From positions 1 through 30,665 of the IMG/VR virus record IMGVR_UViG_3300025736_002212: a DNA stretch of 30,665 nucleotides; one strand, given 5' to 3'. This DNA comes from a virus. Every line of letters starts with the position of its first letter. Position 1 is the stretch's first letter. The notes under the pieces are model-generated. The model searched no databases. It was not told the origin of the DNA and saw only the letters and a list, made by a program, of their open reading frames with translations. The translations under genes and the position numbers were made by a program. Positions 1,225-21,867 of the stretch are shown here, in pieces.

Positions 1225-1249
1225 TTTTTTCTCCAATCGGTTTTTTTGT

Positions 1250-1282
1250 AGCCCACGGGGGAATCTGACCCCCCCATGAGCC
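1250..1282. other. GC-rich hairpin in a small intergenic gap
   Basis: GGGGG (1257-1261) faces a run of seven C (1269-1275), and the stem is extended by AGCCCA (1250-1255) against TGAGCC (1277-1282) with two wobble pairs. Neither strand has a U-tract after it, so it is not a clear terminator. It lies just upstream of the 67-aa gene on the minus strand. Confidence 0.4.
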
Positions 1283-1355
1283 TCGGCAATCGCGGGGAGA
1301 TGCGCCGGAGACATCTACTCAGGCCTGGCAACGGGCCCGCCCCTCGCCTCGGAGG

Positions 1356-2855: not shown

Positions 2856-3242
2856 ATGACCGCTGGCCGCCCAAAACTTCCGATCGATCCCGTGAAGGTC
2901 AAAGACTTGGCAATGATCCATTGCACCATGGAGGAAATTGGACACATTCTCGGATGCTGTGTTCAAACCCTGGAAAATAATTTTTTGGATATCATAAAAG
3001 AGGGTCGTGACAATGGCAAGGCCAGCTTGCGCAGGATGCAATATGCCAAAGCCAAAGAAGGCAACCCGACGATGATGATTTGGCTTGGCAAACAATTGCT
3101 AGGCCAGAGCGACAAGGCCGAAACCCAAGTCTCCGGTCCAGGCGGCGCGGCTATCGAATTTGTGATCAATAACGCGATGGGTATCAAGCCGGGCGAGGTG
3201 GCAAATGCTGGCACCAACAAAGCCGACGAAGACACGGATTGA
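2856..3242 (+). CDS. terS: Terminase small subunit (HTH type, 128 aa)
   Basis: This is the DNA-recognition subunit of the packaging motor. The sequence MTAGRPKLPIDPVKVKDLA followed by CTMEEIGHILGCCVQTLEN is the N-terminal helix-turn-helix of a common TerS family. The later KASLRRMQYAKAKEG and MMIWLGKQLLGQSDK segments are also characteristic, including the 'WLGKQ.LGQ' motif. The ATG at 2856 is chosen because homologues usually begin just before the GRP motif. A TTG at 2778 would add 26 residues, and neither start has a good ribosome site. The gene overlaps the large subunit by 38 bp, and the pair fixes its identity. It is the first gene of the rightward structural operon. Confidence 0.8.
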   Translation: MTAGRPKLPIDPVKVKDLAMIHCTMEEIGHILGCCVQTLENNFLDIIKEGRDNGKASLRRMQYAKAKEGNPTMMIWLGKQLLGQSDKAETQVSGPGGAAIEFVINNAMGIKPGEVANAGTNKADEDTD

Positions 3243-4461
3243 TTTATGCGAGTGCGTCAACAACATCTTTCAGCCGTTCCTCGGAAATCAATCGCGTTTC
3301 CTTGTTTTGTATGGCGGGGCAGGATCGGGTAAAAGTTATTTCGCTGCACAAAAAGTTATCATGCGTTGCCTAACTGAAACACCTCACACTCTAGTTTGTG
3401 TCCGCAAGATTGCCAGGACGTTGCGCGAGTCTGTCTTTGTGGCATTGTTGGGCGTGATTTCCCAGTGGGGCTTAGCGGATCATTTCAGGGTCCATGAAAC
3501 TAACATGACCTTCACGTGCCTCGATAATGGCAATCGAATCTTGTGCGTCGGCCTGAACGATCCCGAGCGGATCAAGTCAATCACTGGCGCGGACGGTTTG
3601 GGCATCACGGGCGGATGGGTAGAGGAGCCGACTGAATTAACCCCGTTTGATCTCATACAATTTGACCTTCGTTTGCGTGGTCGATCACCCAATTACAAAC
3701 AAATCATTCTGACCTTTAACCCCATCAGTCATTTGCATTGGCTCAAAGGCCGATTCTTTGATAATGAATCCCCCAACACCACAATCAGCAAAACCACCTA
3801 CCTGAATAATCGATTCATTGATGATGGATATGAAGCTGTGTTGTTCGCCACACGCAACGAGAGCGAAACCTATTATCAGGTCTATGCCTTGGGCAACTGG
3901 GGCGTTCTCAAAGGCGTGATTTACAAGCCCTTCGAGAGCTTGGCAAGATACCCTGATGAATTCGGTGAGACAATTTACGGCCTTGACTTTGGCTTCAATC
4001 ATCCGACTGCGTTGGTTGGCATAGGCCTCCGGGATGGCGAGGTTTATCTGGATGAAGCCTTTTACGAAACCGGCAAGACCAATGCCGACTTGATCAAAGC
4101 CATGGGGGCGATGGGTATTTCAAAGCGTCATCCAATTTATGCAGATTCGGCAGAACCAGATCGCATTATGGAAATCAAGCGGGCTGGGTATAACATCCAC
4201 CCGGCAGATAAAGGCCAAGGAAGCGTTATCGCTGGCATCGACTTTTGTAAGTCCATGAAAATCTATACCCGCCCTGGCAATATCAACATCAACAATGAGA
4301 ATGCAGCCTACAGATACCGAGAAGACAAAGACGGAAACACCCTTGAAGAACCAGCCAAGCTCGATGATCACGCGATGGACGCCATGCGTTACGGCCTATT
4401 TTCCCATATCCGCAAACCCAAGCTGATCAAACCATTCCCTCGCTCAGAGATGGGGATTTAA
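3205..4461 (+). CDS. terL: Terminase large subunit (Terminase_3 / PBSX type)
   Basis: This is the packaging ATPase and nuclease, 418 aa, a normal length for the family. Visible motifs are Walker A GGAGSGKS at residues 37-44, Walker B TGGWVEEPTE at 135-144 with the catalytic Glu, coupling motif LTFNP at 169-173, and the RNase H-like nuclease centre. The nuclease acidic residues are in GLDFGFNHP (D261), YADSAEPD (D314) and LDDHAMDAMRYG (D388). The ATG at 3205 follows GAGG by seven bases and overlaps terS. It cuts concatemeric DNA and drives it through the portal encoded next door. Confidence 0.95.
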   Translation: MLAPTKPTKTRIDLCECVNNIFQPFLGNQSRFLVLYGGAGSGKSYFAAQKVIMRCLTETPHTLVCVRKIARTLRESVFVALLGVISQWGLADHFRVHETNMTFTCLDNGNRILCVGLNDPERIKSITGADGLGITGGWVEEPTELTPFDLIQFDLRLRGRSPNYKQIILTFNPISHLHWLKGRFFDNESPNTTISKTTYLNNRFIDDGYEAVLFATRNESETYYQVYALGNWGVLKGVIYKPFESLARYPDEFGETIYGLDFGFNHPTALVGIGLRDGEVYLDEAFYETGKTNADLIKAMGAMGISKRHPIYADSAEPDRIMEIKRAGYNIHPADKGQGSVIAGIDFCKSMKIYTRPGNININNENAAYRYREDKDGNTLEEPAKLDDHAMDAMRYGLFSHIRKPKLIKPFPRSEMGI

Positions 4462-4464
4462 GCC

Positions 4465-5922
4465 ATGCCTGTCACATTGACCAACGAGCAAATAGTATCG
4501 ATATGGGATAACGACGATGCCCGCCGGACTATTCAGACGGCGAGACGTGAATACTACGACGGCACGCAAGATATTCTCGATGAGGATTCAGAGCGGATCG
4601 ACGGCAGTGACCGGACGCGCAATGTCATTAATTGGGTTAAATACATCGTCAACGCCCATGTTTCGTTCCTGACCTGCGAGCCATTCCGGTATTCACTGGA
4701 CGCCGCCGGAGCTGAACGGGGCGAGGGGGTGTCAGCGGACGACCAACGCGAAGCCCTAGCCAACCTATCGGCCATCTATGACGATAATAACCTCAACGCC
4801 ATGGACGTGGAGAACATGACCAGCGCCGTCCTTTGTTTGAATGGCGTAGAGGTCCATTCATATGATCCCGAAGGCAATGACGGCGAGGGCAAAATAGTCA
4901 TCAACTCATACGACCCCGAGGATTGGGGTTTTCTGCGAGACGCCAGCGGCAACGTCGTGGCGGCTATCTACAAAACAACCATCCCGGCAGGGTCATATTT
5001 CGAGGAAGCGATTGTTGACGAAGATTTCGATCTTTACGCGGTTTATGACGATGCCAATATCAGGGTTCTCAAAGCCGAAGGGTCGAACTTGTCGGAGGTT
5101 TCCAACACGGCCCATCAATATGGGCGTTTGCCCGTGGTGGTTTATTACACCGGGCCGAACGATGATAAACCGTTCGTTTCTGATGCCCTTGTTGGGTTGC
5201 AGAATAGTTATAACTTCGTAGCGTCCGGCAACATCGATGCTTTGCTTTACAATCTGGATGGCCTTTTGAAAATGATGGGTATTGAGCAGGGGGCGCTCTA
5301 CGAAAAGGATGAAAACGGCGTAAGGGCGATTGACTTGATTCGACAGAATCGCGTTCTACCGATGCCAGAGGGTGGTGATGCGTCGTTCATCGAGAAGAAC
5401 AACAACTATGATGCGTATGATTTTTCACTCACCACGCTACGCCGGGCCATTCACATGATGGGAGCGGTCCCGGATAAAGAGGAAATCGCTGGTGCAACTG
5501 GCGCAACGTCGGGCATTGCTCTAAAATTAAAATTGCAACCGCAAATCGAGCAGGGATCGAATTTCTTTAAGTATTTTGTGGCGGGTTTACGCCAGCGCAT
5601 CGATTTGATTAACGCAATGTGGGAAATCAAAAGTTTCCCCATGCTGACCAATTACAATATCAAGCCCGATTTAAACATCCCGGTCAATGAAACCGAAATC
5701 TGGACAAGCATCGGGGCGCTTGAGCCATATTTGACATTGCCTGAAATGTTGCGGCGCATTCCTGGGATTGAAGACCCGGACGCCACGGCAGAGGCGAAGA
5801 AAGCCGAAAACGAAGAAAACACCTCATTGGAATTAGAACGAATTAAGGCCACGCAACCAGTTGACGGGGTGGCGGATGATGCCGACCTGAACGCCGGGGG
5901 TGATGATGCCGATTTTGAATAA
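4465..5922 (+). CDS. Portal protein (SPP1 gp6-like)
   Basis: The 485-aa protein matches the SPP1 gp6 portal family. It has an N-terminal helical part with RTRNVINWVKYIVNAHVSFL. A wing region with GRLPVVVYYTGPNDDKPF follows, then the stem/crown part with ALVGLQNSYNFVASGNIDA and the GATGATSGIALKLKLQPQIE segment typical of these portals. The C-terminus is acidic. Portals form the dodecameric channel at one capsid vertex. The ATG lies three bases after the terL stop, with GGGG upstream. The order terS, terL, portal, scaffold, capsid is standard. Confidence 0.93.
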   Translation: MPVTLTNEQIVSIWDNDDARRTIQTARREYYDGTQDILDEDSERIDGSDRTRNVINWVKYIVNAHVSFLTCEPFRYSLDAAGAERGEGVSADDQREALANLSAIYDDNNLNAMDVENMTSAVLCLNGVEVHSYDPEGNDGEGKIVINSYDPEDWGFLRDASGNVVAAIYKTTIPAGSYFEEAIVDEDFDLYAVYDDANIRVLKAEGSNLSEVSNTAHQYGRLPVVVYYTGPNDDKPFVSDALVGLQNSYNFVASGNIDALLYNLDGLLKMMGIEQGALYEKDENGVRAIDLIRQNRVLPMPEGGDASFIEKNNNYDAYDFSLTTLRRAIHMMGAVPDKEEIAGATGATSGIALKLKLQPQIEQGSNFFKYFVAGLRQRIDLINAMWEIKSFPMLTNYNIKPDLNIPVNETEIWTSIGALEPYLTLPEMLRRIPGIEDPDATAEAKKAENEENTSLELERIKATQPVDGVADDADLNAGGDDADFE

Positions 5923-5938
5923 TAAAGGAACGTGACTC

Positions 5939-6613
5939 ATGGCAAAGGAAGACAAGGACCAAACCAAGGAACCCGGCAATGAGAACGCTGGGGGCCAAGG
6001 CGAAGGGACTGAAAACGAAACGGCAAACACCAATGAAACGCCAATGGATCAGGCGGCGGTGGATGCGTTATTGGAAAAACCTGAAGTCAAAGCAGTTTTG
6101 AATGAATTGCTTCAAAGGAATGGCGACAAACGGGCAACGCAAGCAGCGGCAACGGCCAAGAAAAGCGCCCTCGAAGATGCCAAAAAGCAACAGCGAGAAG
6201 ATAAGTTGCTTGAGGACCAGAACTTCAAGGAATTGCTCACCGTGCGCGAGCAGGAAGCGGCAGAGGCCAAGGCGAAATTGGAAGCCTACGAACGTAAGGA
6301 TCGGGTGTCAGCGTTACTGGACAAGGAACTCGTAACGGACCCGGAACAGCGCGAGGGTTTTCATTTGCTATCTGGAGACCTTGAGATAATCAAGGCTCAG
6401 ATCGACGCCCAAAAGGCAATGATTGCCCGTCTGGTCGATGAAACTGTAAATAAACGATTGAAAACAGATCCCCCACCTGGCGGGAAAACAAGTGACTCCA
6501 CCCTGACGGCTGAAGACGTGCGCGGATGGTCAACAGAAAAGCGCACTGAGTTTATCCGCAAAGAAGGCGCGGCAGCCTATGCCGCCGTCCTTGCGAAACG
6601 AGACAAAAAATAA
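5939..6613 (+). CDS. Capsid scaffolding protein
   Basis: This is a 224-residue, highly charged protein. It has an N-terminal disordered Glu/Asn/Gly/Thr-rich tail to about residue 35, a long Ala/Lys/Glu coiled-coil region at about 60-165, and a basic C-terminus ending KRDKK. The composition and the position between portal and major capsid genes fit a scaffold of the DUF4355-like type that templates procapsid assembly and is then removed. The ATG at 5939 has an AAAGGA ribosome site. No protease domain is seen, so the scaffold is probably expelled or cut by another protease. Confidence 0.85.
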   Translation: MAKEDKDQTKEPGNENAGGQGEGTENETANTNETPMDQAAVDALLEKPEVKAVLNELLQRNGDKRATQAAATAKKSALEDAKKQQREDKLLEDQNFKELLTVREQEAAEAKAKLEAYERKDRVSALLDKELVTDPEQREGFHLLSGDLEIIKAQIDAQKAMIARLVDETVNKRLKTDPPPGGKTSDSTLTAEDVRGWSTEKRTEFIRKEGAAAYAAVLAKRDKK

Positions 6614-6651
6614 CGCCGTCCATTGATAATAAAAAGGACAGGTGAAACAAA

Positions 6652-7635
6652 ATGACGATCGGACTGCAAAGCGACCTGCAAATCTATAACGCACTATTTA
6701 ACGGTGCGATGTATGAATCAGTTGCTCAAAACCTTGATGCCCTTAATGCCAATTCGGCAGGGACAATCCTGTTGGGCAACGAATTTCTGAAAGGCAATTA
6801 TGCTCAAACCTCGTTTTGGAAGGCGCTGACCACGCCCGTAACGCGGCGCAATATGACTAGCGTTTCAGCCGTGACCGATAAGGCTGCATCTCAGGCTGAA
6901 GTCGTGTCGGTGAAGATCCTGAAGAAATTCGGGCCTTTTGCTCACGCGATTGGTGCGCTGAAACAGGTCGGCACTACCCCGGCGGCCTGGTTTGAAATGA
7001 TGGGCGGCCAGTATGGCAAGACCAAAACGGAGGAGCAGTTGAACATGGCGTTTAACGCCCTTGTGGCGGCCCTGGAAGCCCAAACGGCTATTGTCTATGA
7101 TGCAACGGGCACAAGCGCAACGTCATTGACTCACGGCAACCTGGTTGAGGGCATGGCGCTGTTTGGCGACCGGTCGAGCTCAATCAAGGCCTGGGTCATG
7201 CATAGCAAGCCTTATTTCGATCTGGTTGGCAATGCGATTTCCGACAAAATCACCAATGTGGCCGATGTGGTTATTTATGGTGGTGGTCCGGGCACGTTCA
7301 ACAAGCCAGTCATCGTGTCGGATTCGAGTTATCTAATCGATTCCTCGACATCGACCAGTGAATATTATGTCCTTGGCCTGACCGAGGGAGCCGCACAACT
7401 CACGCAATCTGCAGAAGATACGATCGCCAATGTGGATGAGGTCACCGGCCTTGAACAGTTGGCCGTTCGTAGCCAAGCTGAGTTTGCTTATAACCTAAGC
7501 ATCAAGGGTTTTGAATGGGATTCTGATATCGGATCATCCAACCCTACGGCGGCCTCGGTTGGCACCGGTAGTAACTGGGATAAAGTTGTCACGTCCGATA
7601 AGGACCTGGCAGGCATTATGATTAAGGTGCTGTAA
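6652..7635 (+). CDS. Major capsid protein
   Basis: The 327-aa protein lies directly after the scaffold and is preceded by AAAAAGGACAGG. Features of HK97-fold coats used with SPP1-type heads are visible. These are an N-terminal LQIYNALFNGAMYESVAQN helix, the RRNMTSVSAVTDKAASQAEVVSVKILKKFGP strand-rich segment, a long spine-helix-like EEQLNMAFNALVAALEAQTA, and late strands (KPVIVSDSSYLI). It should be the most abundant product of the operon. It is a plausible acceptor for the glycan cassette downstream because it is rich in Ser and Thr, but that is inference. Confidence 0.9.
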   Translation: MTIGLQSDLQIYNALFNGAMYESVAQNLDALNANSAGTILLGNEFLKGNYAQTSFWKALTTPVTRRNMTSVSAVTDKAASQAEVVSVKILKKFGPFAHAIGALKQVGTTPAAWFEMMGGQYGKTKTEEQLNMAFNALVAALEAQTAIVYDATGTSATSLTHGNLVEGMALFGDRSSSIKAWVMHSKPYFDLVGNAISDKITNVADVVIYGGGPGTFNKPVIVSDSSYLIDSSTSTSEYYVLGLTEGAAQLTQSAEDTIANVDEVTGLEQLAVRSQAEFAYNLSIKGFEWDSDIGSSNPTAASVGTGSNWDKVVTSDKDLAGIMIKVL

Positions 7636-7648
7636 ATCGAAAGGTAAA

Positions 7649-8341
7649 ATGATGGAATCGATTGGCATTTATGCGTTAATTCGCAATGAAATCACCACAG
7701 CTACTATGGATGGGGTTAGAGCCATTGGGTATCGCGCCCGCCATATAAGCCCAAAGGTTTTTTCACAGGTAGATGATGTTGAGCCTTTCAGGGCGGTTAT
7801 TCTCGGTGATTTAAGCCCCCGTCAGTCTGATATTGTGTCGGCCTATGCCAACGTATCAGGGGTGAGGGGTTTAGCGAAACGCCAATCGATTCCGATCATG
7901 GCTGTAATTCCTGCGGCCCAAGAGACCGCGAGTGATGATTCATGGGTAGTTTTCATGCCGACGGCAACGGGATTGTTAGAGGACAGAACGACGATATCCT
8001 GTTCGATGGATGCCATTAAAAAGGGCGTTCCGTTCAAGACGATTCTGCAACGATATACAGCTCATGAAATGGGTTTGGCGATTGAAGAACCCGGCAAGGT
8101 TAAACAACCGCCACGGGGGGCGGAAATGGCTGAGGCAGACACCAGCGACGCCATAGCGCCCCCCGAAACCATGAATATACGGACTGATCCTCCATGTGCG
8201 GAACCAGCGTTAGAAGCCGTTGCCCCTGAACCGGTGGCGGTTTTGGATTTGCCGGTAGCTCCCATTACTCGTCCTAAGCCAAGTGCAAAGCGCGGGCGGC
8301 CCTTTGGAAGCAAGAACGTCAAGCCAAGGAGTAAAACCTAA
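7649..8341 (+). CDS. Unknown head-operon protein with AT-hook-like C-terminus
   Basis: This is a 230-aa protein of unknown family. The first roughly 150 residues look like a compact alpha/beta domain (FRAVILGDLS, SIPIMAVIPAA, DSWVVFMPTA). A Pro/Ala/Glu-rich linker of about 60 residues follows. The C-terminus AKRGRPFGSKNVKPRSKT contains the RGRP core and GSKN tail of an AT-hook, a minor-groove DNA-binding motif. Two ATG codons are adjacent at 7649 and 7652, and the second has the better spacing from AAAGG. The stop overlaps the next start (TAATG). Its position after the coat gene suggests a head accessory or internal DNA-binding protein. Confidence 0.7.
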   Translation: MMESIGIYALIRNEITTATMDGVRAIGYRARHISPKVFSQVDDVEPFRAVILGDLSPRQSDIVSAYANVSGVRGLAKRQSIPIMAVIPAAQETASDDSWVVFMPTATGLLEDRTTISCSMDAIKKGVPFKTILQRYTAHEMGLAIEEPGKVKQPPRGAEMAEADTSDAIAPPETMNIRTDPPCAEPALEAVAPEPVAVLDLPVAPITRPKPSAKRGRPFGSKNVKPRSKT

Positions 8342-8754
8342 TGGCTTTAGTATATACATTCTGCACGGAAGCCGAAGCGGATGCTTTTTTCCTGGGACGG
8401 TTGGGGTCTGATTCTTATTGGACATCGGGGGCGGAAAAGGAAGCAGCGTTAACCACAGCATACCGACAGATTTATTATAATAAAGAATATGAATTCACTG
8501 ACCCGGCCAGCGGGGTTGAATGGGCGACAGTGATTAAGTATGCCCAATGTGAACAGGCTTTATTTTTGCTTATCCATCAAGAGGACATGGATAAGCGCGT
8601 CGGATTGCAAGCGCAGGGCGTGCGAACGGCATGGTCAGTGCAGGAGGGCTATGCCGAGGGCGTGAAGCGACCGCCTATTTGTATCTCGGCAAAGGAATAT
8701 CTGAAACCGTATCGGAAATACGGAATGGGCTTGATGGTCAACATGCCAGATTAG
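8341..8754 (+). CDS. Head-tail connector protein (DnaT-like/adaptor type)
   Basis: The 137-aa protein fits the family of small helical adaptors placed after the coat gene. The N-terminus MALVYTFCTEAEADAFFLGR and the helical EKEAALTTAYRQIYYNKEYEF and KYAQCEQALFLLIHQ are typical. This group is often labelled 'DnaT-like' but acts as the head-completion adaptor that docks on the portal. It begins in the TAATG overlap with the preceding gene. In most related phages the next genes are head closure and neck; here a ten-gene cassette intervenes. Confidence 0.8.
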   Translation: MALVYTFCTEAEADAFFLGRLGSDSYWTSGAEKEAALTTAYRQIYYNKEYEFTDPASGVEWATVIKYAQCEQALFLLIHQEDMDKRVGLQAQGVRTAWSVQEGYAEGVKRPPICISAKEYLKPYRKYGMGLMVNMPD

Positions 8755-8771
8755 AAAAGGGGGTTTATATT

Positions 8772-10172
8772 GTGAGCCAAAGGACAGAAATAATGGCCGC
8801 GCGCGCAGCCGCCCGTAGGCGCTTGGGTATTAAGCCGGATGGCGCTGTTGGACATAGAGCCGGTGTGGATAATATGACTGTCAGAAATCCCGCGTCCGGT
8901 GTTTTGCGTGATGGCATGTGGCGCGGACAGCGGTGTTTTCTTATTGGGGGCGGCCCATCCTTGAGGGGGTTCAATTGGGATTCACTTGATGGGGAATTGA
9001 CCATCGGGGTTAATCGCGTCATTGAGAAAATGACACCAACCATTCTTTATTCCATGGATACGCGGTTTATCAGGTGGCTATTATCCGGACGTTACGGGGC
9101 GGAGGCGCGTGATAAATTTATCAACTCTGAATGTTTGCGGGTTTGTTTACGCAATGACCCCAAGTTTATTTTCCCACAATATGTGCATCAAATCCCGTGC
9201 GTTGGCGGCCCGGCTTGGAGTAAGTCGCTCAATCAGGGATTGGGCGGTGGATCAAACTCTGGTTATGGCGCATTAAATATGGCGGTATTGTTAGGGGCGA
9301 GTCCGATATATCTTTTGGGGTATGACATGATGGGCGATGGTAATGGGCATCAAGCGCATTGGCATGATGGGCATCCAGAGACTCAAAAGGGAAAGATATA
9401 TTCCGAACAATTCATCCCGAAATATGAAGCCGCTCTCCCCAATATAAAAGAGACTGGCGCGCGGGTGATCAATTTGAATCCACTATCGGCCATGAAATGT
9501 TTCGAGTTTGGTGATTCAGGCGACATACCGCCACAGCGCAAGCCCGTGGTGGTCGCCTATTATACCGAGGGGACAGGCTACGAGGCCGAGGCGGACCGCT
9601 TGAAGGCTAGCCTGAAGCCCTTGGGCCTTGAGGCGTGTATTGCCCCCGTGGAGAATCTTGGATCATGGCAGGCCAATACCCAATACAAGGCACGGTTTCT
9701 GAGAGAGATGTTTGATTGTTGCAAGGGGCGTGACTTGCTTTACGTGGATGCTGATGCCACGTTTGAGCGGTATCCTACAAGGGTGATTGATTTTAAGGGC
9801 GATATTGGGATACACTACAGAGCGAAACGGAACGGGAGCAAGGAGCTACTTTCGGGGACTATCTATTTGGCCAACAATAGCAGGACAAGGGCCTTGATTG
9901 ATGAGTGGATAAAATACAATGAGGCTCACCCGCTTGAATGGGATCAGCGCAATTTGCAAAAGGTTATTCATTCAATGTCTAGGGGCACAACGGCAGAAGA
10001 TGCGAAACGGCGCACGCGGGAAGTGCTGGCAGGGGACGAGGAAGAGCGAGCTTTGTTCTCCTTGGTAGAATTGCCAGCCGAATACTGCGCAATATTTGAT
10101 CAGGACATGGCTCCGAATCCTGTAATCAAACACTGGCAAGCGTCGCGTCGGCTCAAAGCCACAATAGGGTGA
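8772..10172 (+). CDS. Fused MptE/DUF115-like and GT-A glycosyltransferase protein
   Basis: The 466-aa product has two domains. Residues about 52-245 carry RCFLIGGGPSL, TIGVNRVIEK and YGALNMAVLLGASPIYLLGYD, the pattern of DUF115/MptE-like proteins, a fold related to GT42 sialyltransferases. Residues about 256-405 carry KPVVVAYYTEGTGYEAEADRL and LLYVDADATFERYP, a GT-A nucleotide-sugar transferase with DxD at 326-328. The start is the GTG at 8772 with AAAAGGGGG upstream; a longer frame overlapping the connector gene has no ribosome site. It opens the glycan cassette. Exact donor and acceptor cannot be told. Confidence 0.82.
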   Translation: MSQRTEIMAARAAARRRLGIKPDGAVGHRAGVDNMTVRNPASGVLRDGMWRGQRCFLIGGGPSLRGFNWDSLDGELTIGVNRVIEKMTPTILYSMDTRFIRWLLSGRYGAEARDKFINSECLRVCLRNDPKFIFPQYVHQIPCVGGPAWSKSLNQGLGGGSNSGYGALNMAVLLGASPIYLLGYDMMGDGNGHQAHWHDGHPETQKGKIYSEQFIPKYEAALPNIKETGARVINLNPLSAMKCFEFGDSGDIPPQRKPVVVAYYTEGTGYEAEADRLKASLKPLGLEACIAPVENLGSWQANTQYKARFLREMFDCCKGRDLLYVDADATFERYPTRVIDFKGDIGIHYRAKRNGSKELLSGTIYLANNSRTRALIDEWIKYNEAHPLEWDQRNLQKVIHSMSRGTTAEDAKRRTREVLAGDEEERALFSLVELPAEYCAIFDQDMAPNPVIKHWQASRRLKATIG

Positions 10173-10177
10173 ACATC

Positions 10178-11065
10178 ATGACACTAGGCGATTTGCATAT
10201 CGGGAGGGGAACATTTGAAAACGGAAGCGGGAAAGCGCACCGATCATCAAAAAACCATACCCCAGTATTCAATTGTCAAATGGTCGGAACGTTTAACGTC
10301 AATGCTGATTTCAGCATCGGGGATTTTGAACCTTGCATGACGTATCTCGATAAACGTTATTGGCTTGTTAGGATAGACGATACTTATTATGGATGGGCGA
10401 TGCGCTGGGATGGGAGCAAGTTTCGCTTGAAAAAACTTGAGATATTGACCCGCTCACCACTGCCGGATAAATTGAAGGACGGGCGGGAATTGAAGATTGA
10501 GGTTTTATCGCGCTGGGATAGCAGACGAATCAATCAATGGGCATCTGATATAACCTGGTTTCAATCGTTCCCGTGGTCGCCCCAACGAGCGGATAGCGCC
10601 ATGGTGTGGGATACCATCAAGGGGCACGGTGAATGGTCGGGGTCAACCGTATTGGATATTGGTTGCAATTATGGGTTCTTTTCCTTTCAGGCGGCAAAGG
10701 CGGGGGCGCAGGTCACTGGAACGGATCGAGCGCCCGTCATGGGCGTTGCCAAAACAATCAATGACCACATTGAGATGATGGATGTCAAGTTTCGTGCCGG
10801 GTGGGGTGAAGAGACGTTCGATTATATCTTTTATTTGAGTGTCCACCATCAAATAGATCCCATATATGAAACTCTTGGGAGGACGATTGAAAACTTGCGT
10901 AGGCGCGCGCGCAAGGGCCTGTTTGTTGAATTGATCAATCCCCCGTTGAAGGGTGAAAGAAGCGAGGCGGATGTGAATGAAATCATGGGCGGTGAAGTTC
11001 TTACACGCTATAAGCACCGCGTCCGCTGTATGAGAACCATCTATAAGATGGGGGGAGAAGCATGA
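10178..11065 (+). CDS. Class I SAM-dependent methyltransferase
   Basis: The 295-aa protein has a Rossmann methyltransferase domain in its C-terminal half. Motif I is VLDIGCNYGFFSF from residue 158, and GTD (D183) is the ribose-binding acidic position. The KGLFVELINPP strand comes near the end. The first 140 residues, ending in FQSFPWSPQRAD, resemble the substrate region of CmoB-like or sugar methyltransferases. The ATG at 10178 has AGGGTGA upstream. A GTG at 10169, overlapping the previous stop by four bases, is the alternative. A small-molecule or glycan methyltransferase role is inferred from the neighbours. Confidence 0.85.
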   Translation: MTLGDLHIGRGTFENGSGKAHRSSKNHTPVFNCQMVGTFNVNADFSIGDFEPCMTYLDKRYWLVRIDDTYYGWAMRWDGSKFRLKKLEILTRSPLPDKLKDGRELKIEVLSRWDSRRINQWASDITWFQSFPWSPQRADSAMVWDTIKGHGEWSGSTVLDIGCNYGFFSFQAAKAGAQVTGTDRAPVMGVAKTINDHIEMMDVKFRAGWGEETFDYIFYLSVHHQIDPIYETLGRTIENLRRRARKGLFVELINPPLKGERSEADVNEIMGGEVLTRYKHRVRCMRTIYKMGGEA

Positions 11066-11712
11066 AGCGTATAACCATTGTCATTCCCACCCGCAATCGA
11101 TGGGATAAATTGCGCCGCGCTTTGGCCTCTTGTATCGAGCATCCGCAGGTTGACGTGACGGTTGTTTGTGATGGGGATAGGGATACGTTTGACAGGCTGA
11201 TGGACGTCCAGGCCCACAATCTAAGGGTGATGTATGTCCCGGAAAACAAAGGCGCGGTGTTCTGCCGGAATCTTGCGTGCAAGGATATCCAGGACGGCTT
11301 GCTTTACGCCACGGATGATATTGAGTTTAAGCCCGGCGCGATTGACGCGGCCTTGGCGGCTTTCAACAAGCATTTTACGGACGATGACGGGGTTGTCGGG
11401 TTTACCCAAACACCCCACTCATTTCACCCGTCCGGCGTGGCGCTGATGGGTCTGGCGTTTCTTGGCCGGTATCCAGACAGGCAGCCATTCTGCCCGGACT
11501 ATTATCATTTTGCGGCGCAAGAGATTTATGAATTGGCCAACAAGCTTGGGCGGTTCGTTCAATGCCCGGAGTCGTGCGTTATCCACCGGCACCCATGTTT
11601 CAACCCCGATCAAATGGACCAAACACACAAGGACGCCCGGCGACTCAAAAAACAAGACGACGAAACCCGCCGGCACCGCAAGGCTCAAGGCCTTATTTGG
11701 GGAGAACAATGA
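11062..11712 (+). CDS. GT2-family glycosyltransferase
   Basis: The 216-aa protein starts ITIVIPTRNRWDKLRRALAS, the hallmark N-terminus of GT2 (GT-A fold) enzymes that bind the nucleotide sugar. ENKGAVFCRNLA and the metal-binding acidic pair in YATDDIEF (D85, D86) follow. It is shorter than most GT2 enzymes, has no membrane helix and ends in a charged helical tail. The start overlaps the previous stop (ATGA) and the stop overlaps the next start (ATGA), so translation is coupled through three genes. It should add one sugar to a protein or glycan acceptor. Confidence 0.88.
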   Translation: MKRITIVIPTRNRWDKLRRALASCIEHPQVDVTVVCDGDRDTFDRLMDVQAHNLRVMYVPENKGAVFCRNLACKDIQDGLLYATDDIEFKPGAIDAALAAFNKHFTDDDGVVGFTQTPHSFHPSGVALMGLAFLGRYPDRQPFCPDYYHFAAQEIYELANKLGRFVQCPESCVIHRHPCFNPDQMDQTHKDARRLKKQDDETRRHRKAQGLIWGEQ

Positions 11713-12017
11713 GGGCATTTATTCTAATCGTCATGGTTTTGTTATTGGCTGGGTGTGTGGCGTCAAGGTCGATGTGCGTTCAGGTGCCCGTGAGTGGGGC
11801 AGAAACCTTCACCACGGCTGAAATAGAAGAGAAGGCTACAACGCCGTGGAGTGTGGGCGATTTGACGCTGACGGCCTTTACCGTGCGTGCGGCTGATGGG
11901 GCAACAACCTCAAGCGCAACCATAACGGCAACCAAGGATTCAGCGGTGGGTATGTGGACAACGATTTTCACTTACGCGGCTGGGATCATAACGGCCCTGG
12001 CAGCGGCGGGATTATAA
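11709..12017 (+). CDS. Small lipoprotein
   Basis: The 102-aa protein starts MRAFILIVMVLLLAGC, a signal peptide with a consensus lipobox (LAGC, Cys16), so it should be lipid-modified by the host Lgt/Lsp pathway and anchored in an envelope membrane. The middle is Thr/Ala-rich. The C-terminal 25 residues (WTTIFTYAAGIITALAAAGL) are hydrophobic and could form a membrane segment. The start overlaps the preceding stop as ATGA. Phage lipoproteins often act in superinfection exclusion or lysis (Rz1), but this one lacks the proline-rich Rz1 composition. A longer upstream frame was rejected because it overlaps the GT2 gene. Confidence 0.78.
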   Translation: MRAFILIVMVLLLAGCVASRSMCVQVPVSGAETFTTAEIEEKATTPWSVGDLTLTAFTVRAADGATTSSATITATKDSAVGMWTTIFTYAAGIITALAAAGL

Positions 12018-12018
12018 T

Positions 12019-12753
12019 ATGAAGCCAACAGTCACCCACATCGTCAATATCTTCCTGGATTATGATCGGCCCGATGTGATTCTCAAACCGGAATGGATTG
12101 TTAAGCGTTTCGATCAGTTTCAGGCCACAACGCTGCGCTCATTGTTGGGCCAGACGTATCAGGATTTCAGGATTTGGGTTTATTGCGGCTTACGCAACAA
12201 GGCGCTGACACAATCATTTGATTGGCATCCACGAATCGAACGGATTTACGGCGAGGGGCGGGACGCGATGAAAACGGTTGATACTGATTTCGTCGCTGTT
12301 ACACGTATTGACTCGGACGATCTAATGCATCGTGAAGCCATGGCCGACGTTCATAACGCCATGGTTTATGACGCCACAAAGAGGTGCGTGCTGATTTTTA
12401 AAAGGAATCTAGCATGGAATCAGAACTATAATTTCATTGGGTATCATTACCGGAAGGCGCCGCCATTCTTCACCCATATTTTTCCCCGGTCGATTTATCA
12501 GGATTTTACGGCATACTATCGTGGCCATTTTGTTAAACACGGGCAGTCTGGGGCGAGGCGCTCCGATGCTATTGAGTTGCCCGTCCATCGTATTTGCGTC
12601 ATCAAACATCAAGAAAACATATCTGATATCAAGCGCAACAGAGAACCGGCAGCGCTCACCCCGGAAGGGTTGGCCCGCCTTCGTGCCAAGGGTTGCATTT
12701 ACGCAGAGGATGAAAAAATCATAGGAAATATATTAACGGAGTTTGGGCAATGA
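12019..12753 (+). CDS. Putative rhamnosyltransferase-family glycosyltransferase
   Basis: The 244-aa protein matches the layout of the 'putative rhamnosyl transferase' family (PF11316-like). An N-terminal WIVKRFDQFQATTLRSLLGQTYQDFRIWV segment lies at residues 26-54. An acidic metal/donor motif TRIDSDDLMH follows with D98, D100 and D101, then an aromatic acceptor region. It is a soluble GT-A type enzyme. The ATG comes one base after the lipoprotein stop, and the end overlaps the next start (ATGA). The sugar is not certain; the family name is historical. Confidence 0.78.
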   Translation: MKPTVTHIVNIFLDYDRPDVILKPEWIVKRFDQFQATTLRSLLGQTYQDFRIWVYCGLRNKALTQSFDWHPRIERIYGEGRDAMKTVDTDFVAVTRIDSDDLMHREAMADVHNAMVYDATKRCVLIFKRNLAWNQNYNFIGYHYRKAPPFFTHIFPRSIYQDFTAYYRGHFVKHGQSGARRSDAIELPVHRICVIKHQENISDIKRNREPAALTPEGLARLRAKGCIYAEDEKIIGNILTEFGQ

Positions 12754-13514
12754 ATGAAGCAGATGCACAGGGGTATCATTGGACATTCGGCGACCATTCG
12801 CACATCGGACATGCTCTCGCCGAAAGGGGGGTTTATGAACCTACCGGAACCGAGGCTGTTGTGCGCCTTGTTAAGCCTGGACAAACGTTTGTGGATGTCG
12901 GCGCGAACATTGGTTATTATTCCCTCATTGCGGCTATGGCAATGAAGGGGGACGGTCAGGTTGACGCCTATGAACCCGATCCGGCCAACAGCCGTTTTCT
13001 TAATGAAAATATCATGGCTAACGGAATTGATGATATTGTTTCACCCTATCGGGTCGCGCTGTCGAATGAGCGCGGAACCCTGCCGTTGTGTTTTTGTAAA
13101 AAGAACGACGGCGACCATCGCGTTTATGAGTCGGATGAAAGCCGTGAGGTTATTCAGGTACCAGCCTTCAAGGGCGATGACATCTATAAAAACGAGCAGG
13201 TGGATTTTATTAAATGCGATGTTCAGGGCTGGGATGGTTTCGTCCTGGATGGCTTCAAGAGGGTCATTGAGCGGTCCGATAGGTTGATAATCATGGTTGA
13301 GTTCTGGCCATGGGGCCTTAATGCATCTGGCTACGGGGCAGAGGCTTTTCTGAATCGTCTTGAGGGATTCGGGTTTTCAATGCATACAATGAGCCGGGGG
13401 AAAACGCTTATTAAACCGGCAGACTCCAGAGACCTTCATAAATTTGCAAAAATGTCTGACCATTGGGCATACACGAATCTGCTTTGCCTTAAAGACGGTT
13501 GGGGGATTGAGTAA
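12750..13514 (+). CDS. FkbM-family O-methyltransferase
   Basis: The 254-aa protein contains the FkbM signature: motif I TFVDVGANIGYYSLIAA from residue 47, YEPDPANSRFLNENI with the acidic SAM contact, FIKCDVQGWDGFVLDG, and IMVEFWP. FkbM enzymes methylate hydroxyl groups on polyketides and on sugars of cell-surface polysaccharides. The N-terminal WTFGDHSHIGHALAERGVYEP is usual for the family. It is coupled by ATGA to the previous gene and by TAATG to the next. O-methylation of a sugar made by the neighbouring glycosyltransferases is the simplest role. Confidence 0.88.
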   Translation: MNEADAQGYHWTFGDHSHIGHALAERGVYEPTGTEAVVRLVKPGQTFVDVGANIGYYSLIAAMAMKGDGQVDAYEPDPANSRFLNENIMANGIDDIVSPYRVALSNERGTLPLCFCKKNDGDHRVYESDESREVIQVPAFKGDDIYKNEQVDFIKCDVQGWDGFVLDGFKRVIERSDRLIIMVEFWPWGLNASGYGAEAFLNRLEGFGFSMHTMSRGKTLIKPADSRDLHKFAKMSDHWAYTNLLCLKDGWGIE

Positions 13515-14209
13515 TGATTAACGACCAGAAAGTGTCATGTTTGCTGCTAACCCATCATCCATCAAGGATGCCGGTTGTCGATGAAATATGTATGGAATGG
13601 CTCAAAGAGCCCATCGACGAATTAATTCTTTGCGATTGCACAAAGACCGGTTTTAAGAATCTTCAAGCGGCCAAGGATGGGCGGTTCCAGGTTGTTTCGT
13701 TTAGCAAAGATCCAGGTATCAGAGCACGCCACACGCTCGCACTATTATCACGCGGGGATTTTGTTATTCAGGCCGATGACGACGTTATGCCCAAGAATGG
13801 ATTTGCAACGGATCTTTATAATGGATGGGAAATTCACGACGGCATTGTTGGAATAATCGGGCGTAAATTTACAGGCTCGGATTATCGGAAGGGTTCGACG
13901 TTTTTCCGATCAAGCAAAATAGATAAAATCACACCAGTAGATTGGGTTGGCGTGGTTTATGGGTGCGGACGTGATTGTTTGATTATGGATATGCGCGATC
14001 TTGAAACGGCCTATAGTGACCTTTTCTGGTGCTGCGAAGCGCATAAAGATAAACCCAAACACGTCATTCAGACTCAACGGTATGAAAACCTCCCATCTTG
14101 CAATGACAATGATTGCCTTTTCCATAATCAGAACGCTAGAGCAATCAGGCAGGATTATTATGCTGGCCTCTGGGAATCTCACTATAAGATTGAGGATTTA
14201 ATAAAATGA
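13514..14209 (+). CDS. GT-A type glycosyltransferase (GT2/GT64-like)
   Basis: The 231-aa protein has the ordering of a compact GT-A enzyme. SCLLLTHHPSRMPVVDEI forms the first nucleotide-binding strand and helix, and FSKDPGIRARHTLALLSRG is the segment before the DxD. QADDDVMPKNGF supplies three consecutive Asp at 88-90. The C-terminal half is Cys-rich (VVYGCGRDCL, FWCCEAH, LPSCNDNDC). The DDD motif and the HxL region recall exostosin-type GT64 domains as well as GT2. It is tightly coupled on both sides (TAATG, ATGA). Specificity is unknown. Confidence 0.78.
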   Translation: MINDQKVSCLLLTHHPSRMPVVDEICMEWLKEPIDELILCDCTKTGFKNLQAAKDGRFQVVSFSKDPGIRARHTLALLSRGDFVIQADDDVMPKNGFATDLYNGWEIHDGIVGIIGRKFTGSDYRKGSTFFRSSKIDKITPVDWVGVVYGCGRDCLIMDMRDLETAYSDLFWCCEAHKDKPKHVIQTQRYENLPSCNDNDCLFHNQNARAIRQDYYAGLWESHYKIEDLIK

Positions 14210-14739
14210 ACGCTGATCAATATGTTGAACATTGGGAGGGGCGGCAGGTTTGGACTCACCTAACCAGACCGAAACATCAAGCGCGCCTAGCAGAATGCGC
14301 CAAGCACCTCCGGGGCGAAACCTTCGCTGACATAGGGTGCGCTTATGGCCACTCCACCGCAATTATGGCGGGGACGAAGCCCGGCAAATGGTATGGCGTT
14401 GATTTCTCGCAAAAGGCTATTGACAAAGCCGGGGAACACACGGGGAAACGTGGCATCGATTTCATTTATGTGCCCGATTCGGCCTCACTGGGTATTGAGA
14501 TGTATGATTCGGTCGTATGCTCGGAAGTCATCGAGCATGTCGAAAACGATAGGGCGTTCATCACGGACGTTATTAGCGCGGCACGGTTCAGGGCCATTTT
14601 CACAACGCCTAACAAAAGGGTCAACGATCCCGGCCACTTGCGCCTTTACAATCAGGCCATGCTGAAGGAGCTGTTCCATGGTTTCGCAACTCGGATTTTT
14701 CAATCCGGTCTCTTTTGGTTTATTATTGTGGAGAAATAG
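14206..14739 (+). CDS. Class I SAM-dependent methyltransferase (Methyltransf_11/UbiG-like)
   Basis: The 177-aa protein is a minimal Rossmann methyltransferase. Motif I is FADIGCAYGHSTAIM at residues 40-54, with acidic contact YGVDFS. The VVCSEVIEHVENDRAFI motif is characteristic of UbiG-like and sugar methyltransferases, followed by FTTPNKRVNDPGH and LRLYNQAMLKELF. No extra domains are present. It starts in an ATGA overlap. The short length and neighbours suggest a sugar or phospho-alcohol substrate rather than nucleic acid, but no substrate-specific residues can be read. Confidence 0.85.
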   Translation: MNADQYVEHWEGRQVWTHLTRPKHQARLAECAKHLRGETFADIGCAYGHSTAIMAGTKPGKWYGVDFSQKAIDKAGEHTGKRGIDFIYVPDSASLGIEMYDSVVCSEVIEHVENDRAFITDVISAARFRAIFTTPNKRVNDPGHLRLYNQAMLKELFHGFATRIFQSGLFWFIIVEK

Positions 14740-14743
14740 CACG

Positions 14744-15895
14744 ATGTCAAGACCGCCCCTTAATCCAGTTATTGCAAAAGGCATTCTCTTTGAAGTTGCC
14801 GACATCCTCGAAGAATTTAACCTGCCGTTTTTCCTGATATGCGGGACCGCCTTGGGTGCCTACAGAGACAGGGGTTTTGTGCCGTCTGATAATGATATCG
14901 ATCTTGGATATCTAATCGAAGACATGACGGGCAATATTGACGCCATTATTTCAGGATTTGAGAGCGCCGGGTTTGGAGTCTCACACGTTTTACGGGGGAC
15001 AACTGATAAGCGTGAAACCCGCGCATTCTGTGTTGATAAAAGCGGCGTTCATGTGGATCTTGTTGGATGGTCTAAAAACCGCAATGATCGTTATATAATG
15101 GCATCCAGTAAAAACCGCGCATTAGTTCATCCCGCCAAGGTCATTGAAAACCCATCGCCGGTTATAATGTTTGGGCGCACCTTCATGATGCCCGCCCCCC
15201 ATGAAACTTACCTGCACCATGAATACGGCCCCGATTTTATGATACCAAGGCCAGATTATCATAAAAGCTCATCGCGTATCTCTAACTATAAACCCGATGA
15301 AATCGATATCAAGTCATTGCTCAAGCGGGATGTCGGCAGCGCCCATCTTGACAAAATATATGGCGACAATGTGAACTATTATGCTTATTTCGATGACGCC
15401 GAAATGGTTGAAAAGGGATGGCGGCCTGTCGGCGACTGGATGGCCGCCAAGTGGGGAAATCGAAACAAGCGCGTGTCTATCCTAGACGTTGGTTGTGGGG
15501 TAGGGACGCCGCTCAGGGCTTTTGGTTTTGATTATTCATATCACGGCTTTGACGGATCGGCGTCGGCCATAAAGCGTGCGCGTGCGTTGTGGGCTGGAAA
15601 TAACGCAACGTTTGAAGTGGCGCGGGTTGATGAATTCAAAACGGATAATCGGTTTGATATCGTCATTTTTGGCTCAATGGATTATTTGCTTATGGGCGGC
15701 GCGAGGGTTCAGTTTATTGAGCATTTCCTAGCCATGACCGGAGCGCCCTATTTTGTTTTTATGGATCTGGAGAAAAGAAAAACCGATGACTTGGCCGCGA
15801 AATATTCACGCCTATATATGCAATCGTTCTCAGTGGCCGTAGAAAACATTCCCGAAGTCAAAAAACACAGGAGGATAGAGATTTATGCAGCATGA
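14744..15895 (+). CDS. LicD-like phosphotransferase fused to a SAM methyltransferase
   Basis: The 383-aa protein has two domains. Residues about 12-205 form a LicD/nucleotidyltransferase-fold domain: ICGTALGAYRDRGFVPSDND and DID around 32-53, HVDLVGW at 103-109, and HHEYGPDFMIPRPDYH near 158-173. LicD proteins move phosphocholine or similar phospho-alcohols from a CDP donor to a glycan. Residues about 244-383 form a class I methyltransferase with ILDVGCGVGTPLRAFGF. The ATG at 14744 has GGAG 11-14 bases upstream; the longer frame overlaps the previous gene. The next gene is a cytidylyltransferase that could make the CDP donor. Confidence 0.83.
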   Translation: MSRPPLNPVIAKGILFEVADILEEFNLPFFLICGTALGAYRDRGFVPSDNDIDLGYLIEDMTGNIDAIISGFESAGFGVSHVLRGTTDKRETRAFCVDKSGVHVDLVGWSKNRNDRYIMASSKNRALVHPAKVIENPSPVIMFGRTFMMPAPHETYLHHEYGPDFMIPRPDYHKSSSRISNYKPDEIDIKSLLKRDVGSAHLDKIYGDNVNYYAYFDDAEMVEKGWRPVGDWMAAKWGNRNKRVSILDVGCGVGTPLRAFGFDYSYHGFDGSASAIKRARALWAGNNATFEVARVDEFKTDNRFDIVIFGSMDYLLMGGARVQFIEHFLAMTGAPYFVFMDLEKRKTDDLAAKYSRLYMQSFSVAVENIPEVKKHRRIEIYAA

Positions 15896-16328
15896 ACAAC
15901 GAGTAATAATTCTTGGCACGTTTGATTTGTTTCACGTGGGACATTTACGCGCACTGCGATTCGCCAGCACTTTGGGAACATTTCTGGAGGTTGGTATTGA
16001 GTCCGATGATATGTGTATGGAGTCCAAAGGTCGATATCCTGTGATCAGTGAAGATCATAGAGCCGAAATTGTTCAGAACGTGAAAGGAGTCGATAGCGCG
16101 TTCATTTACCGCAACCATTTCTATGAGGGATTTATAGGCCCCAAAAATTATCAAGTATTAGCATGGAATGAAGCCAATGAAAAGCCGCGCCACTTAGCGT
16201 TTTTGGAATATTGCAGGCGAAGCGGAATTAAGATCGTTCCTATTCCACGAACGCCGGGAGTATCATCCACGGAAATCAAAGCCGACATCGCGCATAATTG
16301 CCGGTTTGCGGGGGCGTGTAATGTCTAA
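15885..16328 (+). CDS. CTP-dependent cytidylyltransferase (TagD / phosphocholine type)
   Basis: The 147-aa protein is a small nucleotidyltransferase of the glycerol-3-phosphate/phosphocholine/phosphoethanolamine cytidylyltransferase family. The HxGH motif is in GTFDLFHVGHLRAL (residues 11-24), and the second signature RTPGVSSTEIK (122-132) corresponds to the family's RTxGISTT. The length is close to TagD (about 130 aa). It would activate a phospho-alcohol with CTP. The ATG overlaps the LicD gene by 11 bases and has a full AGGAGG ten bases upstream, the strongest site in the cassette. The substrate cannot be decided. Confidence 0.88.
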   Translation: MQHEQRVIILGTFDLFHVGHLRALRFASTLGTFLEVGIESDDMCMESKGRYPVISEDHRAEIVQNVKGVDSAFIYRNHFYEGFIGPKNYQVLAWNEANEKPRHLAFLEYCRRSGIKIVPIPRTPGVSSTEIKADIAHNCRFAGACNV

Positions 16329-17474: not shown

Positions 17475-19130
17475 ATGGCTAAAAAACCCAAAGTCTTTAA
17501 CGCAATCACGCCGGGCGATCCTCTGGCCTTCGAGGATAAGCGCATCGATACGCTTGTCGGTCTGTATCATGGCTCAAAGAACCGCCTACGCAAGATTGCC
17601 ACGGAAACGCCGACGCCAGCTGAACTATGGCGGGCCAATGCCCTGTTGAAACAAGTCGATGGTGAAATCGCTTTCCTGAATGAGAAGGCCGTGGAATTCT
17701 CCGGCAAGGCGGCGTCGGACAGTTACCGCGCCGGGTGGCGCGTGACAGACAAAGCAGCCAAGGCCCAGGGCGTAACCGAGGCTGCCAACTGGGGCGCACT
17801 AATCAATACGCGGGCCGTTAAAATTGTGGCCGATCAAATGGCGCAGGATCTCATAACGGCCAACCAGTCAATGAAGGGAACATTTACGCGATACATCCGC
17901 GCCACCCAACAGAAAATAATTTCTGAAAACGAAATTAACCGGATGATTGGCGAGGGCCTTATTAGTGGGGCAACACGCCGGGAAACATCGACGGCGTTTT
18001 ATAAGCAACTGACCGCTCAAATGAAGGATGATAAATTCATTACCATTAAGGGCCGGAATTATGATCCAGAACATTATGCCGAATTGGTAGCCCGCACACG
18101 CACACGCGAAGCCGCGACCGAGGGGATGATCAACGGAGCACTGCAATGCGGGATGGACCTGATGCAGGTATCGGTCCACAGCCATCCGCGCCTTGACCCG
18201 TGCTCGCCGCACCAGGGGCGTGTTTATTCTATTTCGGGCACGCACCCGGACTTCCCGAAACTGGTTGAACGGCCCCCGTATCATTGCAATTGTCGCCATG
18301 TAATATCCGCGACCAACGAGGCGACCCTCAGACGTCGAGGCCAGTATGACGCCCTTGTCGAGTTGTCGGGGAATCAACCGAAAGACCCGACGAATCGTAA
18401 ATCGCTTGAGGCCTGGGTGAAGGATGACAAGCCGAAGATGTTTGCCGATTCGCGCGAATATTATGAATATGTGCGAAAAGCAAAGGAAAACATGCCTCCC
18501 TCCGCCGTTTATATGCAAGCAGCAAGCGCCGGGGACGAGGCGAAGGCGAAAAAAATACTGGATAACGCATTGCAAGAGGCTGGGTTCCGGGCTGACGATG
18601 CAATTTATCATTTTTCACAAGCGAAAGACGCTCAAGAGTTAGCAACAAATATAGAAGAAGGCGAAGGCGGGGCTTTTTCGAACATCGGAATGTTCTTAAC
18701 TAGAGAGGATGATTTCCAGGGGGCTTACGGCGGAAAGGGTGGCACGCGATTTAGCGTTGTTGTCAAGGATGGTAAATATTTTGTTCCGTCTGAAGTAGAT
18801 ACTCAAGACATAGCCGAGCAGTTCTTGAGGAGCAACCAAGGCAAGGACATTTTTGATCAAGCTTATGATGCGGCAGATGAGTTAGATTTAATAAAAAAAG
18901 TAGCCGAGGAAATGGACGCTGGAGAAATTATTGATATCAACGAGATACTTGAAAACGCCGATTTTACAGAATGGTTAGTAGATGAAGGCTATGATGGAGT
19001 TGATATAAATGGTGGGAATCTTATTATTTATGATCCTCTGAGTAATGTTAGATTTTCCGACCCCATCTTGAGGGATTCAGATGGGAATATTATATCTCTA
19101 GAAGACAGGGTGAGAAAACTATTTCCGTAA
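17475..19130 (+). CDS. Minor head protein (Mu F/SPP1 gp7 type) with putative ADP-ribosyltransferase tail
   Basis: The 551-aa protein has a helical N-terminus and, near residues 233-275, the Mu gpF signature with VHSHPRLDPCSPHQGR and PPYHCNCRHVI. Residues about 365-545 form an additional domain: AIYHFSQAKDA, GMFLTREDDFQGAYGGKG, and GYDGVDINGGNLIIYDP. This order (YHx, 'GxFLT...A.AY', 'GYDGV...IxYDP') resembles ADP-ribosyltransferases of the phage polyvalent-protein type. GC falls from about 58% (18241-18300) to 33% (18841-18900) across the boundary. Mu F-type proteins ride in or on the head, so the extra domain could be delivered with DNA. Catalytic activity is not proven. Confidence 0.82.
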   Translation: MAKKPKVFNAITPGDPLAFEDKRIDTLVGLYHGSKNRLRKIATETPTPAELWRANALLKQVDGEIAFLNEKAVEFSGKAASDSYRAGWRVTDKAAKAQGVTEAANWGALINTRAVKIVADQMAQDLITANQSMKGTFTRYIRATQQKIISENEINRMIGEGLISGATRRETSTAFYKQLTAQMKDDKFITIKGRNYDPEHYAELVARTRTREAATEGMINGALQCGMDLMQVSVHSHPRLDPCSPHQGRVYSISGTHPDFPKLVERPPYHCNCRHVISATNEATLRRRGQYDALVELSGNQPKDPTNRKSLEAWVKDDKPKMFADSREYYEYVRKAKENMPPSAVYMQAASAGDEAKAKKILDNALQEAGFRADDAIYHFSQAKDAQELATNIEEGEGGAFSNIGMFLTREDDFQGAYGGKGGTRFSVVVKDGKYFVPSEVDTQDIAEQFLRSNQGKDIFDQAYDAADELDLIKKVAEEMDAGEIIDINEILENADFTEWLVDEGYDGVDINGGNLIIYDPLSNVRFSDPILRDSDGNIISLEDRVRKLFP

Positions 19131-21574: not shown

Positions 21575-21867
21575 TTGCATCGGTTTTTCCGGGGCTTTTC
21601 TCTTATACGGACCTCACGGCGCTTGATGGCCGCGATTTGGAATTTTGGCAACAGAGGGCATATATTGAGCAGCGCATGGCGCAACTGAGAATGGCGAACG
21701 CTTGCAGGGTGGCACAATGCGAGGGGCGCGATTTCCAGAATTGGGTTTCGGGCGTGCGGCGGGATATCCTTATCATTGAGGGAACACTCACACAAGAGGA
21801 AATCTATCGGCGCAATCTCGATCACTTGAAACGGAAAGCCAATTATAAGACGGCGGGTAAAAAATAA
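21254..21867 (+). CDS. Tail assembly chaperone GT (-1 frameshift product)
   Basis: The zero-frame codons GAA AAA AAC contain the canonical -1 heptamer A AAA AAC at 21535-21541. Slipping back one base enters a frame with no stop until 21865-21867. This adds about 108 residues, including GLIASVFPGLFSYTDLTALD, GRDLEFWQQRAYIEQRMAQL and a C-terminal helical, Lys-rich segment. The second frame has no credible start of its own. Its stop overlaps the tape measure start (TAATG). This reproduces the lambda G/GT arrangement. Confidence 0.85.
21535..21541 (+). promoter_or_regulatory. Programmed -1 frameshift site A AAA AAC
   Basis: The heptamer lies in the correct phase relative to the ATG at 21254, between chaperone G and the T extension. 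A AAA AAC is among the most efficient X XXY YYZ sites. A GC-rich stretch follows at about 21542-21600 and may provide a stimulatory structure. Confidence 0.85.

Follow-up and report, generated by a model that had tools for sequence, protein, structure and literature searches.

LicD enzymes are bacterial tools for placing phosphocholine on surface glycans. The Lic-1 pathway (LicA kinase, LicB permease, LicC cytidylyltransferase, and LicD phosphotransferase) uses LicC and CDP-choline, and bacterial LicD decorates LOS and teichoic acids (PMC10434233). A licD and ispD pair was described in the replication module of one "Flandersviridae" gut phage by Benler et al. (2021), who proposed a role in superinfection exclusion; the activating enzyme there is of the IspD family, and no methyltransferase is reported (PMC8008677). 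The mf1 cholinephosphotransferase of Mycoplasma fermentans (NF045866), which acts on a glycolipid, was characterized in vitro and accepts both CDP-choline and CDP-ethanolamine (PMC11982090). Further comparators are FKRP, a human enzyme with the LicD-family fold that transfers ribitol phosphate from a CDP-alcohol donor, and the glycerol-3-phosphate cytidylyltransferase TagD.

The DNA analyzed here (the window) comprises the 30,665 bases of the linear IMG/VR virus record IMGVR_UViG_3300025736_002212, from an uncultured phage. Its structural block is siphovirus-like (PHROGs), and a sugar cassette lies at 8631 to 16328, between the capsid and MuF-like genes (Pfam/PHROGs). This cassette ends with a LicD-methyltransferase (LicD-MTase) fusion gene and an HxGH transferase gene (CT). 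The features are as follows.

3205 to 7635 (+): terminase (starts at 3205), portal (starts at 4465), scaffold, and major capsid protein (capsid starts at 6652), upstream of the sugar cassette (PHROGs)
8631 to 14209 (+): other sugar-cassette genes, lying between those for the major capsid and minor head proteins (Pfam/PHROGs)
14206 to 14739 (+): class I methyltransferase directly upstream of LicD (Pfam Methyltransf_11, 3e-9; homologue fused in P0003 of locus L091)
14744 to 15337 (+): LicD domain, aa 1 to 198, conserved core about aa 9 to 180 (PF04991, FKRP fold)
15338 to 15895 (+): fused class I SAM methyltransferase domain, aa 199 to 383 plus stop (PF13649, MTase folds)
15885 to 16328 (+): CT, nucleotidyltransferase of the HxGH cytidylyltransferase fold, 147 aa (PF01467)
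17475 to 19130 (+): MuF-like minor head protein, downstream of the sugar cassette (phrog_4611, 3e-35)
Starting at 21867: tape measure (PHROGs)
Starting at 27093: J-like tail protein (PHROGs)

As in Lic-1, the window LicD is paired with an enzyme able to make a CDP donor. In contrast to Lic-1, in which LicC has the NTP_transferase fold, the activating enzyme in the window has the HxGH/TagD fold, and LicD is fused to a methyltransferase and is phage-borne among head genes; neither a LicA choline kinase nor a LicB permease was found in the scanned ORFs of this linear fragment. The window also resembles the "Flandersviridae" pair in that a phage LicD adjoins a cytidylyltransferase-family gene, and differs from it in the HxGH enzyme, the fused methyltransferase, and the position in a sugar cassette among head genes. 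We conclude that the window module is LicD plus an HxGH nucleotidyltransferase to which no specificity is assigned, neither a proven TagD system nor the Lic-1 pathway. It is a variant of the already known LicD/CDP-alcohol pathway; what is new is that the MTase is a constant member of the unit, that it has been fused repeatedly, and that the unit is placed in phage sugar cassettes by head or tail genes.

The fusion gene at 14744 to 15895 (+) encodes a 383-aa protein, P0001, in which a LicD domain at the N terminus is followed by a class I methyltransferase at the C terminus. Its ORF opens at 14678, and the ATG at 14744, with GGAG about 10 bases upstream, is the better start. The LicD domain passed the family test (PF04991, E of 9.4e-10, 39.4 bits against a gathering cut-off of 22.6, aa 24 to 60) and carries the motifs GTALGAYRD (aa 34 to 42), D49-N-D51-I-D53, and H103-V-D105; in an alignment, the module LicD proteins keep the DID aspartates (D51 and D53) and D105. 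The AlphaFold2 model of P0001 has a mean pLDDT of 79.8 and a pTM of 0.55, and the mutual placement of its two domains is not reliable. The top LicD match of the predicted fold is FKRP (aa 1 to 172, Z of 14.4, rmsd of 3.1, 162 aligned, 20% identity), and the FKRP complexes with CMP and CDP-ribitol (6kal and 6kam) are among the fold matches over the same residues, with Z of about 14. The best NCBIfam LicD match is to the mf1 model NF045866; it lies over the catalytic motif and reaches 43.7 bits, well short of the equivalog cut-off (225), and mf1 has no fused methyltransferase. Judged by its sequence, the window LicD is a LicD family member that is predicted to transfer an alcohol phosphate from a CDP donor. 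The preliminary description placed the HxGH gene across the end of the LicD-MTase gene, and its coordinates are right, with domains above Pfam cut-offs and matching folds. It had also named loss of the LicD active site as a finding against its proposal; no such loss was seen in the structural check, since D49, D51, D53, and D105 are all present and the fold is that of FKRP. A degenerate LicD was therefore rejected. Compared with the near-identical L001 over 8.6 kb, 24 of 37 differences lie within the final 600 bases, in LicD (14744 to 15342); these differences cluster at the contig end of L001, and strain variation and an assembly effect are both possible.

The ATG of CT at 15885 lies inside the LicD-MTase gene, giving an 11-bp overlap (15885 to 15895), and an AGGAGG upstream of it is inside that gene as well. 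CT matches PF01467 (E of 2.7e-12, 47.4 bits against a cut-off of 21), passed the CTP_transf_like superfamily test, and contains HVGH (aa 17 to 20) and the TagD-like RTxGxSxT motif as RTPGVSST (aa 122 to 129). Its AlphaFold2 model (mean pLDDT of 86.8) is closest in predicted fold to Bacillus subtilis TagD (1coz; Z of 18.3, rmsd of 1.7, 125 aligned, 31% identity), followed by the Fom1 CyTase (5x3d; Z of 18.1), with a weaker match to HldC. The designation "TagD-type" given earlier goes too far: the TagD fold and the HxGH motif are there, but CT cannot be assigned to TagD, as it misses the TagD equivalog cut-off (TIGR01518, 48.6 versus 165.4 bits), and GDxW is lost, replaced by WNEA. In four module members the equivalent is GDTW, GETW, GQTW, or GQNW (a GxxW form), while L091 also is without the motif.

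CT might instead be a sugar-phosphate nucleotidyltransferase of the ADP-heptose type that serves the glycosyltransferases, with host CDP-alcohol feeding LicD. The PHROG that it matches bears the name heptose 1-phosphate adenyltransferase, its score against the HldE C-domain equivalog (TIGR02199, 50.5 bits) is slightly above its score against the TagD model, and in each of the nine phage enzymes that were scanned the rfaE_dom_II score equals or exceeds that of g3p_cytidyltrns. However, all nine score far below either curated cut-off (that of TIGR02199 is 181.5), the best folds, TagD and then Fom1 CyTase, are both CTP enzymes, linkage to LicD is tight in several lineages, and no heptose pathway genes were recognized in the fragment. 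We consider an ADP-heptose type enzyme improbable.

With the LicD N terminus as query, IMG/VR gave 13 loci. In L020, L022 (with its near duplicate L023), L024, and L025, LicD, MTase, and CT are separate, adjacent, overlapping genes, so that the separate-gene module is found in three other phage lineages (L020, L022/L023, and L024/L025). In a fourth lineage, L091, a homologue of the methyltransferase at 14206 to 14739, LicD, and a second MTase form one 602-aa protein, P0003, and CT (9218 to 9658) follows the fusion gene with a one-base TGATG overlap. L091 and the window have tail genes and the cassette position in common, and the ST, GT, and GT homologues of the window cassette keep their order in L091. 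In L026, L028, L029, and L031, cassettes near capsid or head genes contain LicD together with an HxGH transferase but not the module MTase, and L021 has LicD without MTase or CT. PF01467 is present in 10 of 12 LicD-bearing virus records and in 0 of 11 terminase-anchored controls; one control is itself a piece of the window phage, cut inside LicD, and without it the count is 0 of 10 (hypergeometric, 1e-4, for records that are not all independent, L024 and L025 being close). Between L024 and L025, dN/dS is 0.06 to 0.07 for LicD and MTase, a rough value with dS near saturation, and for CT dS is saturated and dN is 0.09.

Since the LicD-MTase-CT unit is syntenic in other phages, where the three recur together, we reject chance or artifact as its origin. 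The module is real, conserved, and functionally coherent. Fold, motifs, synteny, co-occurrence, and purifying selection support the earlier proposal that LicD and the cytidylyltransferase would work as a CDP-alcohol activation and transfer pair. To call this pair "complete" was an overstatement, because no kinase or other phospho-alcohol source was found among the scanned ORFs of the 30.7-kb linear fragment.

The fused methyltransferase domain of P0001 matches PF13649 (E of 1.1e-8, 36.1 against a cut-off of 27, aa 246 to 314), and in the predicted structure aa 191 to 383 match methyltransferase folds with Z up to 15.2. The MTase family accompanies LicD-CT, fused or separate, in every lineage that has the module, while other cassette genes vary, and the fused MTase therefore belongs to the unit. 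That LicD and its MTase partners have fused stepwise strongly indicates joint action and brings in the gene at 14206 to 14739, which, by this comparison of sequences, is probably part of the functional unit too. What the fused MTase methylates is a separate matter. It could act on the sugar acceptor, the fusion to LicD serving only for channeling on a shared glycan: the cassette has several other methyltransferases, including one of the FkbM type, and the fold comparison favors none among the N- and O-methyltransferases, whose substrates are diverse. The constant presence of this family beside LicD-CT argues against that, as does a weak full-length profile match to phosphoethanolamine N-methyltransferase (E of about 4e-5), which ranks behind plantazolicin and other methyltransferases. 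Methylation of the sugar is a possible reading that we place somewhat below methylation of the head group, and the phosphoethanolamine N-methyltransferase likeness may serve as a lead only.

Neither the GenBank phages nor the bacteria sampled yielded a LicD-methyltransferase unit of this kind. P0001 had no match in 50,697 phage records, among which the LicD and the MTase of L020 had one weak match each, and the P0002 scan of viral contigs gave no match. A scan for the MTase covered contigs of 84,980 species genomes and gave at least 39 confirmed loci; among the 39 matches listed, none has LicD or CT near the MTase. LicD of the module type occurs in 2 of 398 genomes from the phylum of an alphaproteobacterial MAG and in 0 of 296 from the phylum of a Pedobacter genome, and both bacterial proteins are in other architectures, neither being a LicD-methyltransferase. 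Simple transfer of a bacterial LicD-methyltransferase operon is thus not supported, no such arrangement having been found in the sampled bacterial genomes. At one of the two bacterial loci, L096, an IspD-family cytidylyltransferase adjoins LicD. Like the Lic-1 locus and the gut-phage licD-ispD pair, L096 repeats the pairing of LicD and a cytidylyltransferase with an unrelated activating enzyme.

We give a probability of about 0.5 to the reading that the genes at 14206 to 16328 are a phage-borne phospho-alcohol decoration unit in a larger sugar cassette, the sugar being on a virion protein. As we infer them, the substrates, the order of the steps, the role of methylation, and the virion target would be as follows. 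The HxGH enzyme would use CTP (ATP is possible) and a phosphorylated small alcohol from the host pool to form a CDP-alcohol, and LicD would move the alcohol phosphate from this donor to a sugar built by the neighboring glycosyltransferases. The fused MTase would most likely act on the head group of the alcohol, before transfer or once the phospho-alcohol has been placed, with the sugar as the alternative. The remainder of the cassette, at 8631 to 14209, encodes a sialyltransferase/MptE-like plus nucleotide-sugar transferase protein, an MTase, a GT2, a putative rhamnosyltransferase, an FkbM MTase, and a GT2-like protein. The cassette enzymes show no strong transmembrane segment, and the window cassette was not seen to encode a flippase or any polyprenyl-linked or other membrane-embedded enzyme, so that assembly would probably be cytoplasmic. 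The cassette is among head genes, as it is in L091, L026, L028, L029, and L031, which suggests late expression. A virion protein as the probable carrier is favored because of this head-gene position and the lack of export genes, and a particle-bound sugar as target is consistent with both.

The same chemistry could be aimed at the host envelope, altering LPS or capsule and thereby blocking superinfection or changing the surface of a lysogen. The targets of bacterial LicD (PMC10434233) and the superinfection exclusion proposed for the phage licD-ispD pair (PMC8008677) speak for this. The position of the cassette among head genes on one strand, with the late expression that it suggests, and the lack of membrane-embedded enzymes speak against it, and a small lipoprotein gene at 11709 to 12017 is the sole envelope-like protein of the cassette. 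We regard an envelope target as unlikely. This small protein has a lipoprotein-like signal (LLLAGC) and is without a Pfam match.

For the preferred reading of a decorated virion, the head group may be choline, methyl-ethanolamine, glycerol, or another alcohol, among which sequence cannot tell; an assignment with NCBIfam and PDB profiles led to no choice among the candidates. Glycerol-3-phosphate is widespread in bacteria, and a glycerol head group would need no phage kinase. The MTase in the unit and the mf1 precedent (PMC11982090) speak for an amino alcohol. On a further reading, several unrelated phages would have their own kinase-free route from phosphoethanolamine to a methylated CDP-alcohol (CDP-monomethylethanolamine or CDP-choline, for instance) and would place the phospho-head group onto virion glycans as a zwitterionic coat; route and coat taken together, we hold this to be distinctly doubtful. 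If the decoration reading is true, some phages make their own phosphodiester-decorated sugars, probably on the particle, with a unit as small as the two genes in the window, and the MTase would let the head group be methylated with no need for choline uptake and a kinase.

Several other features of these records were observed. In the window, a tRNA-Arg (CCG) gene lies at 1248 to 1337 (-), near the left end of the fragment, and the MuF-like protein (17475 to 19130) extends at its C terminus about 200 residues beyond its PHROG matches. The first cassette gene (8631 to 10172) joins a domain matching PHROG 4603, "alpha-2,3-sialyltransferase," and MptE-like PF01973 to a nucleotide-sugar transferase domain; it has homologues in L091 and in L028, where it is fused to a GT2. 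The homologous cassette of L091 contains a sulfotransferase at 5304 to 5894 (PF13469, 1e-15), so that its glycan may carry sulfate as well. Radical SAM-like proteins that share a similar CxxxCxGC motif are absent from the window and lie near LicD in five records (L020, 10542 to 11480; L021, 9293 to 10360; L022, 5398 to 6336; L024, 9436 to 10452; and L025, 4890 to 5837), the L020 protein matching Pfam Radical_SAM at 5e-6, below the cut-off. L027 has three LicD-like ORFs within 16 kb (3883 to 4473, 8013 to 8519, and 11811 to 12440) and no HxGH transferase in the record. Downstream of the capsid and LicD genes of L031, the region at 12449 to 14604 encodes NeuB (PF03102, 2e-40), an HxGH transferase, and what may be a CMP-sugar synthase.
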